From Rouxiella sp. S1S-2 (GTDB taxonomy: Bacteria > Pseudomonadota > Gammaproteobacteria > Enterobacterales > Enterobacteriaceae), in the NCBI RefSeq assembly GCF_009208105.1, contig NZ_WFKL01000001.1:2356001-2420000 (forward strand): a stretch of DNA of 64,000 bases. The letters are read 5' to 3'. The notes beneath the pieces are model-generated. The model saw nothing but the letters and a program-made list of their open reading frames with translations. It had not been told where the DNA came from and ran no database searches. Each line of letters begins with the position of its first letter. Positions within the stretch are counted from its first letter, which is position 1. Position numbers and translations under genes: made by a program. Shown here in pieces: positions 44,032 to 52,980 of this stretch.

Positions 44032-44412
44032 TCAAGTGGCAAGAATCATTAAAATATGCTGACTTGGCGTAATACGCGCGCCGACGGCATTGGTCGAATT
44101 TTGCAGTGTTGTACTGGTCATGCGCGTGACCGGTGAACCCTGTATCAGCACGGTGACCGAACCGGTGGTATGACGCGAAGGACCCATAAAAGTGCTGGAT
44201 ATCACGCCGCCGTCTGTACCGGCTTCATCACCGTTGGTGATAGGCGTAAGAGTCATCAAGTTATGTGCGGGCATATTCTCGATCAGAATATTGTTAGCGC
44301 GCGGTATAGCGGTGCTGCCCAAGGCGATGTTGGTAAAAGTAACGGGTACTGGGGTTTTACAGACGTCGGGCAACGCCTGATCAGTACCGCCGCACTGGCA
44401 GTTGGCAAACAT
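44032..44412 (-). CDS. DUF4150 PAAR-like spike-tip protein
   Basis: A 126-residue protein with the DUF4150 (PAAR-like) domain: start MFANCQCGGTDQALPDVC, IALGSTAIPRANNILIEN, and SRHTTGSVTVLIQGSPVTR. It likely sharpens the VgrG tip in place of a classical PAAR, which I do not find elsewhere in the cluster. ATG 44412 has AGGAG six bases before it. It overlaps DUF3540 slightly and lies after it in the operon. Confidence 0.86.
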   Translation of the reverse strand: MFANCQCGGTDQALPDVCKTPVPVTFTNIALGSTAIPRANNILIENMPAHNLMTLTPITNGDEAGTDGGVISSTFMGPSRHTTGSVTVLIQGSPVTRMTSTTLQNSTNAVGARITPSQHILMILAT

Positions 44413-44464
44413 AATGGCTCCTGTTTTCCCCAAAAGGGCTGTACTTGACTCACCGAGCCAAATT

Positions 44465-45073
44465 TCAGCCCATATGTATCTGTTTGGCATCAACCTTGGT
44501 CAGCGTTTTGCTGGAGATGAGGGTGGTGTGAGCGTGCATGCGAGTAAATTGTTCGACTCTGACGTCGAGCTGGCCCGCGCGTACCTGCTCAAGCTGCGTG
44601 GTTTTTCGCAGCAGGCGATGGCTGATTTGAGTCATACTTTGCCACACAGTTTCACAGCATTTTCCCATCACACGGCTGACGTTGACCCAAGCGGAAAGAG
44701 TTTTGCCTCGGTAGTTCATATTGCCGACCTGGCACTCGCCCTCTTCGGCGTTGAGAACAAACTGCCGACTGCTCAGCGACAGCGTGTCGGAAGACGCAAT
44801 ATGTAGCGAGCCTTCAACGCTTATCACCGCCGGTTGCTGCTTATCGGCGCGAGTTAGTATCGCCAGCAGCCAAAGCTGTTCGCCGCAGTTGGCGAGCAGC
44901 ACGCTGTCATCGATTTGTGGCGCGAGCAGGCAGCTTGCGGCGCGCTGGCAAATCCAGCCACGACCTTCGCTGTGCACCAGCACCGAACCATCGGGCTTTA
45001 TCTCCCGCACTTGCCCTGAGGTTTGGGCCGGCAAGGCAGGGGAGACAAAAGGTTGTTTAACGGCAAGACTCAT
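44465..45073 (-). CDS. DUF3540 T6SS accessory protein
   Basis: A 202-residue protein of the DUF3540 family, found beside DUF2169 and DUF4150 genes in T6SS clusters. The N-terminal segment GQVREIKPDGSVLVHSEGRGWICQRAASCLLAP and the tail LISSKTLTKVDAKQIHMG with its short beta repeats suggest a small spike- or shaft-like fold. Role unknown; the constant neighbourhood suggests help in assembling or loading the tip. Confidence 0.75.
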   Translation of the reverse strand: MSLAVKQPFVSPALPAQTSGQVREIKPDGSVLVHSEGRGWICQRAASCLLAPQIDDSVLLANCGEQLWLLAILTRADKQQPAVISVEGSLHIASSDTLSLSSRQFVLNAEEGECQVGNMNYRGKTLSAWVNVSRVMGKCCETVWQSMTQISHRLLRKTTQLEQVRAGQLDVRVEQFTRMHAHTTLISSKTLTKVDAKQIHMG

Positions 45074-48702: not shown

Positions 48703-51075
48703 CTATCTATTTCCCCGAGTACCTTTATTGCCCTTATTCCCTTTGTTACCTTTGTCTCCCTTATCGCCTTTGTCGCCTTTATCGCCTTTGTCACCTTGGT
48801 CGCCCTTATCGCCCTTATCGCCCTTATCGCCTTTATCGCCTTTGTCACCTTGGTCGCCCTTATCGCCCTTATCGCCTTTGTCACCTTGGTCTCCTTTCGG
48901 ACCCGCAGGGCCCGGTTCAGGTTCGGCAGGTGGCGATTCGGGCTTGGTGGCCTGACCGCCTTCGTCTTTGAATTTTGTTTCAGCATCGCTGTCTTTCTTG
49001 CGCGCGTCCTTTTTATCAAGCTTGGTTTTGTCTTTGCGGTAAGCCTGCTTGTCTTTGAGATCTTTAATTTTTGACTGTATTTCAGTCAGTGCTGATGATT
49101 CACCCTCTGCCGGCATGGCACCTGAATTAATCGACATCAGCATGGTGCGAATTTGATAAAATGGGACTTGGGTAAAACGTTTGGTGTCGGACTTATAATC
49201 GACAATTGTTTTGGTGCGTGACAGATAGGTGTAACCCATGGCGACACCCTTAATACCAAAATCGCTGGTTGTTGCGGTCACAGATGAAATGGAATTAATC
49301 GTACCGTTGAGGCCATTGACCGACAGGCCAATGCCGGTGGCGGAGAAACTGGCGCCGGTTGTCACCCAATATGACCCGCGGGAGGTGTGATTGGTGGTCG
49401 GTGCCGTTACCGAAACGGTATCGTCACTGGTTATCTCAATTTTGCCCGGCGACCAAATTTTGATTGCTTCATCGCTGGTGGAGGCGGAATAGAGTTTTAC
49501 ATTGTCTTTGGCGGAGACGTTGAGGTTTTTTTGCGAATGAAGATCCAGGGTTTCTTCGCCTTCGGCGTCGTCGAAATAGAGATAACTGCCGTTAGTGACT
49601 TCCGTGCTGCCCTTGCTACGACTCCAGATGCCTGATTTAGTTTCTGACCATTCACCGGCGACCGCCTCTGTGCCATCGCTGGAGGTTACCGCGATCGGTA
49701 GTGTGTGCAAATTATTGAAAACACGGCCAATGATTAAAGGTGCATGCGGATCGCCGTTAATAAAATCAACGATTACCTCTTCGCCAACGCGTGGAACCTG
49801 ATAGCTGCCGTACTGATTTCCGGCCCAGGCGCTGGAAACGCGCAGCCAGCAGGAGTAAAGCTCTTGCTCGTTTTCAGGTTTGTACCAGAGAAATTTCACT
49901 TTCACCCGACCGTATTGGTCGGTTGAAATTGTTTCATCACCCGTGCCGGGATCCTTAACCACCATAGCCGTCTGCGGACCATTGGTGCGCGGCCAGGACG
50001 TTACGCGCTGAGAGCGGTAGTTGACGGTGGCCGGGATGACTGAAAATACGAAGCGATGCTCGTTGGTGTCTTCGTCGTTGGTGGCGTAGCTGTTTTCAGT
50101 CAGCGTGTAGGTTACCTCGGTTATCAGGAACTCCTTACCCTCATCACTGGCGCGCGGGGCTTTTGACAGCGTAAAGGTGTACCCCGGCGCAAGACCAAAT
50201 GCATCACCTTCACCGTAGTTTTTAGCCTGAAGGGCGACATATTCCTGCTGCCTGATTTTTGTATATTGGGTGCCATCAGCTGGCTCGGCGTAGTGCCCCG
50301 GCCATTCTGTACGCGTTGCCGTGTTGCCCGCCTGAGATTGACTTATTTGGCCGGTAGACGAGAGATCAGCGTCTGATTTCAGGTAATTATAATCATCATG
50401 TCGATACATACTCGGGCTGATAGATTCGGTGACATGCCAAGTATCAATGCTCTCTTCATTGACGTAGAGTCCGCTGCTCGCCTGATGATATTCGATGGTT
50501 GAATAACCGGTAAACGGCTCATGGGCGGTGGGCGAGTCTGCTAGCACAAGAGTTTGGCTATCCATCTGATGTGTAAAGTAAAAGTACATCCCTTCATGTT
50601 CCATCAGACGGCTGATAAATTCGAATATAGACTCCTGATATTGAACGCAGTATTCCCATACGCGGTAAGTGCCACTGAGTTTATCTTCAAAGGTGATATT
50701 AAATTCACCGAGCAGCGCGGTGATAATTTCTTTGACTGATTTGTTCTCCCAGATACGAAAACCATAGTTTTGCGTCAAGTACCAAAGGTTCGGGCGTACC
50801 GTTGCCCGGTAAACGTAATATTGCTCTAGATGCGGCTCATGACCCACAAAATCCATACGCGTAACAATGCCGCTGAGATAGCGAGTTGTGAACGGATTGG
50901 GCCGCAATTCCAATGTAAGCGGTTGGCCTAATAGTCCTTTGATATCAATTGAATTGTCAGTGCTGAGTAATTCAATGTTGAATTCATAACAGCCTGATAA
51001 TATTTCTCTTCCAGACATGGATTTAAATAATAAACCACTGCCGAGAGACGTGTGTGCAATGACAACGCGATCCAT
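48703..51075 (-). CDS. vgrG: VgrG (TssI) with collagen-like C-terminal tail
   Basis: A 790-residue trimeric spike. Residues 1-480 are the gp27/gp5 core (VIAHTSLGSGLLFKSMSGREILS, YYFTHQMDSQTLVLADSP, RVKVKFLWYKPENEQELYSCWLRVSSAWAG, GDPHAPLIIGRVFNN) followed by a beta-helix needle (480-640), a Lys-rich alpha segment (665-710) and then 23 Gly-X-Y triplets (722-790) at the tip end. The tail replaces the common DUF2345 end or a toxin domain. VgrG is a trimer, so three tails could wind into a collagen triple helix at the needle's end, rigid and extended beyond the spike. First gene of the leftward operon, probably transcribed from the AT-rich gap 51076-51800. Confidence 0.92.
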   Translation of the reverse strand: MDRVVIAHTSLGSGLLFKSMSGREILSGCYEFNIELLSTDNSIDIKGLLGQPLTLELRPNPFTTRYLSGIVTRMDFVGHEPHLEQYYVYRATVRPNLWYLTQNYGFRIWENKSVKEIITALLGEFNITFEDKLSGTYRVWEYCVQYQESIFEFISRLMEHEGMYFYFTHQMDSQTLVLADSPTAHEPFTGYSTIEYHQASSGLYVNEESIDTWHVTESISPSMYRHDDYNYLKSDADLSSTGQISQSQAGNTATRTEWPGHYAEPADGTQYTKIRQQEYVALQAKNYGEGDAFGLAPGYTFTLSKAPRASDEGKEFLITEVTYTLTENSYATNDEDTNEHRFVFSVIPATVNYRSQRVTSWPRTNGPQTAMVVKDPGTGDETISTDQYGRVKVKFLWYKPENEQELYSCWLRVSSAWAGNQYGSYQVPRVGEEVIVDFINGDPHAPLIIGRVFNNLHTLPIAVTSSDGTEAVAGEWSETKSGIWSRSKGSTEVTNGSYLYFDDAEGEETLDLHSQKNLNVSAKDNVKLYSASTSDEAIKIWSPGKIEITSDDTVSVTAPTTNHTSRGSYWVTTGASFSATGIGLSVNGLNGTINSISSVTATTSDFGIKGVAMGYTYLSRTKTIVDYKSDTKRFTQVPFYQIRTMLMSINSGAMPAEGESSALTEIQSKIKDLKDKQAYRKDKTKLDKKDARKKDSDAETKFKDEGGQATKPESPPAEPEPGPAGPKGDQGDKGDKGDKGDQGDKGDKGDKGDKGDKGDQGDKGDKGDKGDKGDKGNKGNKGNKGTRGNR
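48706..48912 (-). repeat. Gly-X-Y triplet array in vgrG 3' end
   Basis: 23 consecutive Gly-X-Y triplets (mostly GDK, three GDQ, then GNK, GTR, GNR), 9 bp each. At DNA level there is a 54-bp higher-order unit: the GDQ-centred block starting tttgtcaccttgg occurs at 48787, 48841 and, shortened, at 48877. Units are multiples of 3 bp, so slippage changes length but not frame. Confidence 0.93.
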
Positions 51076-51800: not shown

Positions 51801-52505
51801 ATGGATACGACAGAAGAGGACTATAGAAAAATTTGTCAGGCCACACTCGACGGTTTACAGGGTGAATTAGCCAATGGCGGAACTTACCTCACCATCGATT
51901 CCAGATTACGCCTCGAATACTCTAAACTGGTTAAGGCGGCCTCAAATGAACTCAGCGCGAAGGCGACACGTGGATTGATCAGCTGGGAGCAAGCGGCGGC
52001 AGAAGCGCAGGAGATGCGCAACGCGATAATGGAGATGATCCGCGGACGCAGCACGCCGTTAGGGCGGGCCATGGCGCAGCAACTCAAGCGCGAGGGTAAA
52101 ACGCTTAATGCGCTCATTGCCAACAAAACACGCCAAAGTTTTGGTGAATCGGCGATTTTCGATAACCTGAGCGAACTGCAAAAAAACAAGATTTATGGCG
52201 ATATTGTTAAGTCAGCGGGGAAGTCCAATCCGCGCGTTAATGCCAAAATGCTTTACTATTCTCGGGCGGGTAAGGGGTTGCTCATACTGTCTCTCGCCGT
52301 TTCTGTGTATGTAATTACTACCTCCGACGATAAAGTTGCTGCAGTCAAACAGGAAGCTGCGGTGACCGGCAGTGGCATTGTTGGAGGAATGGCCGGCGGA
52401 GCCGTGGCTGGCTTAATGTGCGGTCCGGGTGCGCCGGTTTGTGTGACCATTGGGGCATTTGTCGGCGGCGCTCTGGCGTCAATGGGCATGAGTCTTGCCT
52501 GGTAG
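51801..52505 (+). CDS. Candidate T6SS glycine-zipper (pore) effector
   Basis: A 234-residue protein with no similarity I can name. Residues 1-150 are predicted helical and charged; a hydrophobic helix lies near 159-173; and 190-230 is a strong glycine-zipper segment (GSGIVGGMAGG, AVAGLMCGPGAP, FVGGALASMGM) with Cys207 and Cys214. This architecture, soluble head plus glycine-zipper membrane hairpin, is that of pore-forming T6SS effectors such as Tse4 and Ssp6-type toxins, though no sequence homology is claimed. GGAG precedes the ATG. It is divergent from vgrG and followed closely by a soluble partner gene. Could instead be a membrane scaffold. Confidence 0.55.
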   Translation: MDTTEEDYRKICQATLDGLQGELANGGTYLTIDSRLRLEYSKLVKAASNELSAKATRGLISWEQAAAEAQEMRNAIMEMIRGRSTPLGRAMAQQLKREGKTLNALIANKTRQSFGESAIFDNLSELQKNKIYGDIVKSAGKSNPRVNAKMLYYSRAGKGLLILSLAVSVYVITTSDDKVAAVKQEAAVTGSGIVGGMAGGAVAGLMCGPGAPVCVTIGAFVGGALASMGMSLAW

Positions 52506-52521
52506 TAGGTGGGGAGAAATG

Positions 52522-52980
52522 ATGAATTTTACCGATGCCATAACGTTAAAAGTTATTAATGAAGACACTGAGTTTACGCCCGCCAAAAGCGAGATTTTGT
52601 TCAATGATGCGCCAACCGGCAGGGTTATTGAGGGCAAAGTGCTCGAAAAAGCCGTGGCGCTTGAAACAGGCTATTTGCTGTTTATTACAGACGATATCCC
52701 CGATGAGGAGTTTTTAACGCTGCTGCTGTGCGACAAAAATTTCTCTGTGCTTGATAAAGCGACGCTCGGCGCGGCGATGTCTACCGGCGACTTACGCGAG
52801 ATTGAATTGAGGGGCGACGACGTGCATTTTCGCTTTATCGGCGATACGCTTTGGCGTCTACGGCCGCTCGCACAGCCGTCGCTACGCTTGCCCCTGGTCA
52901 GTGATCCACGCGGTGTGTCGCGTCCTCTGGGCCTACGCCAATATTTTACGCTTCAGGCGGACCCAAAGCGCGGCGGTTGA
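52522..52980 (+). CDS. Soluble partner of the effector candidate
   Basis: A 152-residue predicted beta-rich soluble protein (ATG 52522; the earlier ATG 52519 is too close to GGGGAG) with an acidic N-terminal half, no signal or helix. It starts 16 bases after the effector stop, as an immunity or chaperone gene would. Known pore-effector immunities are often membrane proteins, so a cytosolic chaperone is also possible. I do not recognise the family. Confidence 0.5.
   Translation: MNFTDAITLKVINEDTEFTPAKSEILFNDAPTGRVIEGKVLEKAVALETGYLLFITDDIPDEEFLTLLLCDKNFSVLDKATLGAAMSTGDLREIELRGDDVHFRFIGDTLWRLRPLAQPSLRLPLVSDPRGVSRPLGLRQYFTLQADPKRGG

Follow-up and report, generated by a model that had tools for sequence, protein, structure and literature searches.

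Proteins of the VgrG family are trimers, and their C-terminal extensions are a place where the cargo of type VI secretion systems (T6SS) is chosen; to our knowledge, the extensions recognised so far are folded domains or toxins. In the class III Tvp system of Serratia marcescens, VgrG1-TvpAB-TvpB-TvpC-Paar1, TvpC holds Paar1 in a pre-complex until VgrG1 replaces TvpC, and VgrG1 ends in a beta-prism tip that meets Paar1 (PMC13373197). Collagen-like segments have been described in trimeric proteins of phages: the Tal hubs of streptococcal phages have a gp27/VgrG-like N-terminal domain and predicted triple collagen-like linkers (PMC9437275), and the 64 residues of the trimeric SPP1 gp12 adopt a collagen-like fold (PMC6316719). 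Here, we describe a VgrG with a collagen-like tail encoded in a 64,000-nucleotide stretch of the genome of Rouxiella sp. S1S-2 (the window), and compare it with these systems.

A VgrG with a collagen-like tail

The vgrG gene of the window (48703-51075, minus strand; Table 1) encodes a protein of 790 amino acids, which matched TIGR03361 with 464.6 bits in the NCBIfam search (cut-off 186.35). The tail had been placed at 48706-48912 with 23 triplets in the earlier note, and both coordinates and count proved right. It is an uninterrupted series of 13 GDK, 3 GDQ and 3 GNK triplets, with one each of GPA, GPK, GTR and GNR. The Pfam family Collagen (PF01391) matched the protein with an E value of 2.8e-13 and 49.9 bits (cut-off 27.2), and the models for Scl1 and Scl2, whose cut-offs are 325 and 400, matched it weakly with 56 bits. 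The array was also recognised as a DNA repeat by TRF, with periods of 9, 18, 45 and 54. The stretch preceding it had been noted as Lys-rich; in fact the charge of the 72-residue linker is even (16 Lys and Arg vs. 16 Asp and Glu).

A toxin domain was looked for after residue 655 and rejected, as the only families covering that part were Collagen in Pfam and, in NCBIfam, models of collagen-like adhesins together with HxsA4, which matched weakly. A frame or assembly artefact was ruled out, given that in four of four Rouxiella orthologues the reading frame continues through the tail and closes with it. Between 48591 and 49074, the array opens long ORFs of 126, 112 and 92 amino acids, out of frame with vgrG or on the opposite strand; these are by-products of the repeat that should not be taken for genes.

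Table 1. Features of the vgrG gene and of the adjoining genes in the window.
Feature	Position	Strand	Basis
Collagen-like tail, 23 Gly-X-Y triplets, VgrG residues 722-790	48706..48912	-	Translation and PF01391
Charged linker, residues 650-721, with Pro-rich hinge before the tail	48913..49128	-	Composition and AlphaFold2
Predicted helix in the linker, residues 662-704	48964-49092	-	pLDDT about 40-57
VgrG body, residues 1-649, including the beta-prism region	49129..51075	-	Family matches
gp27-like hub in VgrG body, PF05954	residues 24-328	-	289.5 bits
OB domain in VgrG body, PF04717	residues 385-453	-	61 bits
vgrG stop codon, directly after the last triplet	48703..48705	-	
TvpAB-type, DUF2169 (188.4 bits) and pentapeptide repeats, 834 aa	46155..48659	-	Pfam; name from PMC13373197
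TvpB-type, pentapeptide repeats, 359 aa	45079..46158	-	Pfam
TvpC-type, DUF3540 (130.7 bits), 202 aa, tail-less	44465..45073	-	Pfam
PAAR-like, Tox-PAAR-like PF13665 (107.8 bits)	44032..44493	-	Pfam

An extension beyond the normal VgrG end

When the window VgrG was aligned with 39 other VgrGs, 28 rows had only 0-5 residues past the column of its residue 655, which places the normal VgrG end near that residue and makes everything beyond it an added extension. Seven relatives (P0003-P0009) continue for 86-168 residues past this column and the four Rouxiella proteins are likewise extended; one further row (P0010) is a fragment. The tail had been taken to stand in place of the usual VgrG end, a view that the alignment corrects, as it was added beyond that end. 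In the window VgrG the extension amounts to 135 residues and comprises the charged linker with its predicted helix, the Pro-rich hinge and the tail.

In a tree calculated from VgrG residues 1-530, from which P0010 was left out, all 13 extension-bearing VgrGs that it contained, including two from plasmids of Pantoea piersonii, fell on one side of a single branch (support 100/100), which holds Rouxiella and Pantoea-type relatives. The four Rouxiella VgrGs grouped together within it (support 100/99). The simplest reading of this tree would be that the extension was gained once. Collagen appears to be Rouxiella's version of it, as the other members of the branch carry low-complexity tails that are not collagen-like: Asn-rich in P0003 and P0004, with five NNSRNSTESN repeats in P0005, with two EPTPRQS repeats in P0007, and without apparent repeat in P0006, P0008 and P0009. 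The plasmid-borne VgrGs of Pantoea piersonii (L125:12001-14454 and L126:3001-5436) end in 15 or 14 NASQAS-type hexamers, so that this tail differs by one unit between two strains of the species. The presence of non-collagen tails in relatives indicates that the site tolerates other sequence, and such variety at one site is the strongest argument that the branch needs an arm there and not collagen as such.

Occurrence of collagen-tailed VgrGs

Three screens with PF01391 were carried out on overlapping samples of genomes, all within the class. At the family level, 94 of 392 genomes had a match, 62 of them over the cut-off, and the only VgrGs among the listed frames of at least 500 amino acids (which reached E values of about 1e-4) were those of the window's own genome (G000) and of two others (G003 and G005), all Rouxiella. 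At the order level, a match was found in 164 of 394 genomes (117 over the cut-off), and among the matches listed, 30 loci were examined and yielded one VgrG, that of the window. At the class level, 96 of 369 genomes had a match (67 over the cut-off); no VgrG other than the window's was present among the listed frames of at least 500 amino acids (down to E values of about 1e-5), some of these frames being seen in part.

A protein search with residues 540-790 returned mostly collagens among the best 120 of 4236 matches, and the only VgrG (P0002) was a 727-amino-acid copy of the window's own protein on a contig of 2328 bases. Among the best 120 of 4552 matches of another search for such VgrGs, none had a precomputed PF01391 match, which is weak evidence since the M24T3-type protein was also unlisted. 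No description of a collagen-tailed VgrG was found in a partial survey of the open-access literature, and to that extent the design is, as the earlier note had supposed, not previously described.

Conservation of the tail and constraint on its glycines

Six genomes of the genus Rouxiella were compared, including Rouxiella silvae 213 and Serratia sp. M24T3. An orthologue was present in four of them, with bodies 86-94% identical to that of the window VgrG, and absent from the other two. All four orthologues end in Gly-X-Y repeats (23, 28, 29 and 31 triplets) with 0-1 residue before the stop codon. The tails occur in two versions: that of the window and R. silvae has GDK/GDQ triplets (version 1); in that of M24T3 and G005 (version 2), GKD triplets take turns with GTN/GAN, and the degenerate end contains Trp and Phe. 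Identity between the two versions falls from 86% in the body to 48% in the linker and 39% in the tail. The C-terminus of version 2 (L004; L116:9119-11569, minus strand) reads GQD-GWD-GFD-GFD-GKD-A, with aromatic residues at three successive X positions, which could perhaps form a capping or binding patch.

Constraint on the arrays was assessed by scoring base changes against each array's own 9-base consensus. None of the 111 Gly codons in the four arrays was changed at its first or second base (0/222), a zero that could be forced by definition alone, an array being the longest run with Gly at every third residue; but each run extends from the linker to the protein end, and as no remnants of the repeat lie beyond it, this definition has removed nothing. 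Gly third bases were changed in 10/23, 14/28, 12/29 and 12/31 codons, and the first two bases of X and Y codons at 18/92, 20/112, 37/116 and 38/124 positions, in the arrays of 23, 28, 29 and 31 triplets, respectively. Fisher tests of Gly against X-Y positions gave p values of 7e-4, 2e-4, 5e-8 and 3e-8 in the same order, and 2e-6 and 5e-6 for the 29- and 31-triplet arrays when an 18-base unit was used; these values are indicative only, as the units of a repeat do not change independently of each other and the arrays come from two pairs of relatives. The Gly frame is also kept in the non-repetitive ends of the arrays. Because the first two Gly bases are unchanged while the third base and the X-Y codons vary, the Gly frame looks selected, and the tail is kept in close relatives, with constraint on its glycines in all four orthologues from the six Rouxiella genomes.

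Gene neighbourhood and T6SS of the genome

The TvpAB-type gene begins 43 bases after the vgrG stop codon, and the set of genes beside vgrG, encoding DUF2169 with pentapeptide repeats, pentapeptide repeats, DUF3540 and a PAAR-like protein, is the class III Tvp set of PMC13373197. The PAAR-like gene probably starts at an internal ATG, at about 44412, and its homologue in Pantoea is annotated as DUF4150. It is followed by a lipoprotein gene resembling TagV, whose 114 bits fall short of the cut-off of 300, and by genes for TssJ, TssK, TssL and TssM, recognised from their translations rather than by family search. The ORFs of G005 and R. silvae show the same gene order, which is also the one annotated in Pantoea piersonii.

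The family search detected one VgrG and one Hcp in this genome; two further PF05954 matches, of 385 and 397 amino acids, are phage-hub-like. With a single VgrG, the T6SS of this genome, if active, must use the collagen-tailed spike.

Divergent from vgrG, at 51801-52980 on the plus strand, lie a gene for a protein of 234 amino acids with a Gly-rich, hydrophobic C-terminus and a gene for one of 153 amino acids. The pair looks like a T6SS effector with its immunity protein and would be the obvious cargo candidate. The 234-amino-acid protein was matched in 11 of 147 genomes, and the two genes were adjacent in all eight loci compared. In the four loci outside Rouxiella the 153-amino-acid partner was less conserved (37-43% vs. 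51-57%); at one locus this partner is present in a second, diverged copy as well. Neither protein had a Pfam or NCBIfam match, and the pair is absent from the Pantoea piersonii locus.

Proposed role of the tail

The reading that we consider most likely as a whole, with a probability of roughly 0.5, is that of a collagen-like tip-side arm zipped into a triple helix by the VgrG trimer. The tail would be the form taken in Rouxiella by a C-terminal extension that a single branch of class III Tvp-type VgrGs acquired past the usual PAAR-binding end. As a member of the VgrG family the protein would be a trimer, and three chains would leave the end of the beta-prism together; the charged helix (residues 662-704 approximately) and the Pro-rich hinge may carry each chain past the PAAR tip, where the three Gly-X-Y segments may wind into a collagen-like triple helix. 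With a rise of 0.286 nm per residue, 69 residues would give a thin arm of about 20 nm. On the tip side it might keep partners at a distance or offer them a surface for docking, the most likely partner being cargo; it would be neither catalytic nor PAAR-holding. In favour of this reading are the 23 perfect triplets with PF01391 over its cut-off, the presence of 23-31 triplets in four of four Rouxiella orthologues despite the divergence of linker and tail, the unchanged Gly codons, the single branch of extension bearers and the predicted triple collagen-like linkers of the Tal hubs (PMC9437275). A rigid extension of the spike, as suggested earlier, is possible. The further picture of a sole spike tipped past its PAAR cap by a homotrimeric collagen rod of this length, nucleated by the VgrG prism and carrying or spacing cargo, with the fast-evolving repeat tails of the branch as interchangeable tip arms, is offered more tentatively.

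Formation of a triple helix would be favoured by the trimeric state expected of a VgrG, which gathers the chains, and is favoured by the Lys-Gly-Asp pairs of version 1, which occupy 13 of the 22 triplet junctions of the window array and 16 of the 27 of the R. silvae array. In PMC7824840, a Lys-Gly-Asp pair is reported to raise the melting temperature of host-guest peptides by up to 17.5 °C, and hydroxyproline-free Scl2 pieces of 75-237 residues melt at 23.5-35.6 °C, a stability credited there to many X prolines and charge pairs. A triple helix is disfavoured by the low number of X prolines (2, 2, 1 and 0 in the four arrays), by the scarcity of Lys-Gly-Asp in version 2 (2 of 28 junctions in M24T3 and 2 of 30 in G005) and by the non-collagen tails of the relatives. 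We also count against a rod that it leaves unexplained the route of the chains past the PAAR tip and past the Tvp proteins enfolding this tip. In the AlphaFold2 monomer model the tail had no structure (pLDDT about 26-34) and the beta-prism was not resolved; a tail disordered in a monomer would say little on the trimer.

The tail could alternatively be a disordered, hydrophilic low-complexity arm, in which length and composition matter, no triple helix forms, and Gly-X-Y is one repeat vocabulary of several. The Asn-rich, NNSRNSTESN, EPTPRQS and NASQAS-type tails of other branch members, the few prolines, the two arrays with few Lys-Gly-Asp pairs and the disorder of the tail in the monomer model all speak for it. 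Against it stands the Gly frame, which is intact in all four Rouxiella arrays, non-repetitive ends included, despite turnover at X and Y, whereas composition alone requires no Gly at each third residue. We regard this alternative as the serious rival, at odds clearly below even.

A product of neutral repeat slippage without function is improbable. Slippage in 9-base units preserves the frame by itself, and the tandem DNA repeats, the differences in whole triplets between species (23, 28, 29 and 31) and the single hexamer separating the two Pantoea piersonii strains are what it would leave behind; against this, third bases of Gly codons vary while first and second bases do not (0/222), and the tail has persisted in two lineages with bodies 14% different.

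The earlier proposal of an adhesive probe touching the target cell before or during firing draws on the collagen-like shafts of phage and eCIS fibres (PMC12923769) and could draw on the Trp and Phe at X positions in the version 2 end. The protein ends at the tail with no binding domain after it, and loading of a spike takes place within the cell, ahead of firing. On this evidence such a probe is very unlikely.

Least probable is that the tail docks the PAAR-like protein or the Tvp chaperones: the Tvp set does follow an extended vgrG in the window, G005, R. silvae and Pantoea piersonii, but Serratia VgrG1 ends with the prism and yet uses the same set (PMC13373197), and since in Serratia the PAAR protein is first held by TvpC in the pre-complex and the window TvpC has no tail, holding PAAR is probably not the task of the tail, which leaves the earlier idea of a docking rod for DUF4150/DUF2169 cargo less well supported.

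Comparison with known systems

By sequence, the Rouxiella protein is best described as the VgrG of a class III Tvp system bearing an extension of a kind that was not found described. With its unbroken Gly spacing and its place on a genome's only VgrG, the collagen-like extension lends itself to a clean test: can an arm, be it a rod or disordered, project from a spike beyond the PAAR cap, and how would the baseplate and membrane complex accommodate it? With collagen, Asn-rich and NASQAS-type tails in one branch, structure becomes separable from mere length.

The Serratia marcescens VgrG1-TvpAB-TvpB-TvpC-Paar1 system has the same accessory gene set, and its VgrG is also in the range of 700-800 amino acids (PMC13373197). 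It differs in that VgrG1 has no tail beyond the prism and a second VgrG is encoded in the genome, whereas the window VgrG has a 135-residue extension and its genome no second VgrG. The TTR domain of the EAEC VgrG named in the same paper likewise extends the VgrG core without being a recognisable toxin. Such VgrG extensions are described there as domains that recruit effectors or bind adaptors, none of them as collagen-like; the word "collagen" is absent from the main text.

The tail resembles proteins of PF01391, Scl1, Scl2 and SPP1 gp12 in its perfect Gly-X-Y repeats without hydroxyproline and in its charged X and Y residues; these bacterial and phage collagen-like proteins are, however, surface adhesins, fibres or capsid proteins and not T6SS spikes. 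The likeness to the streptococcal phage Tal hubs (PMC9437275) extends to architecture: both have a gp27/VgrG-like hub, trimeric in Tal and presumably so in the Rouxiella VgrG, followed by collagen-like segments of variable length. In Tal the collagen linkers lead to carbohydrate-binding modules of a phage adhesion device, while in Rouxiella the collagen-like segment closes the chain of a T6SS spike, which stops at the last triplet without such a module. By analogy with these hubs, the tail would most likely work in the way of their collagen-like linkers (PMC9437275).
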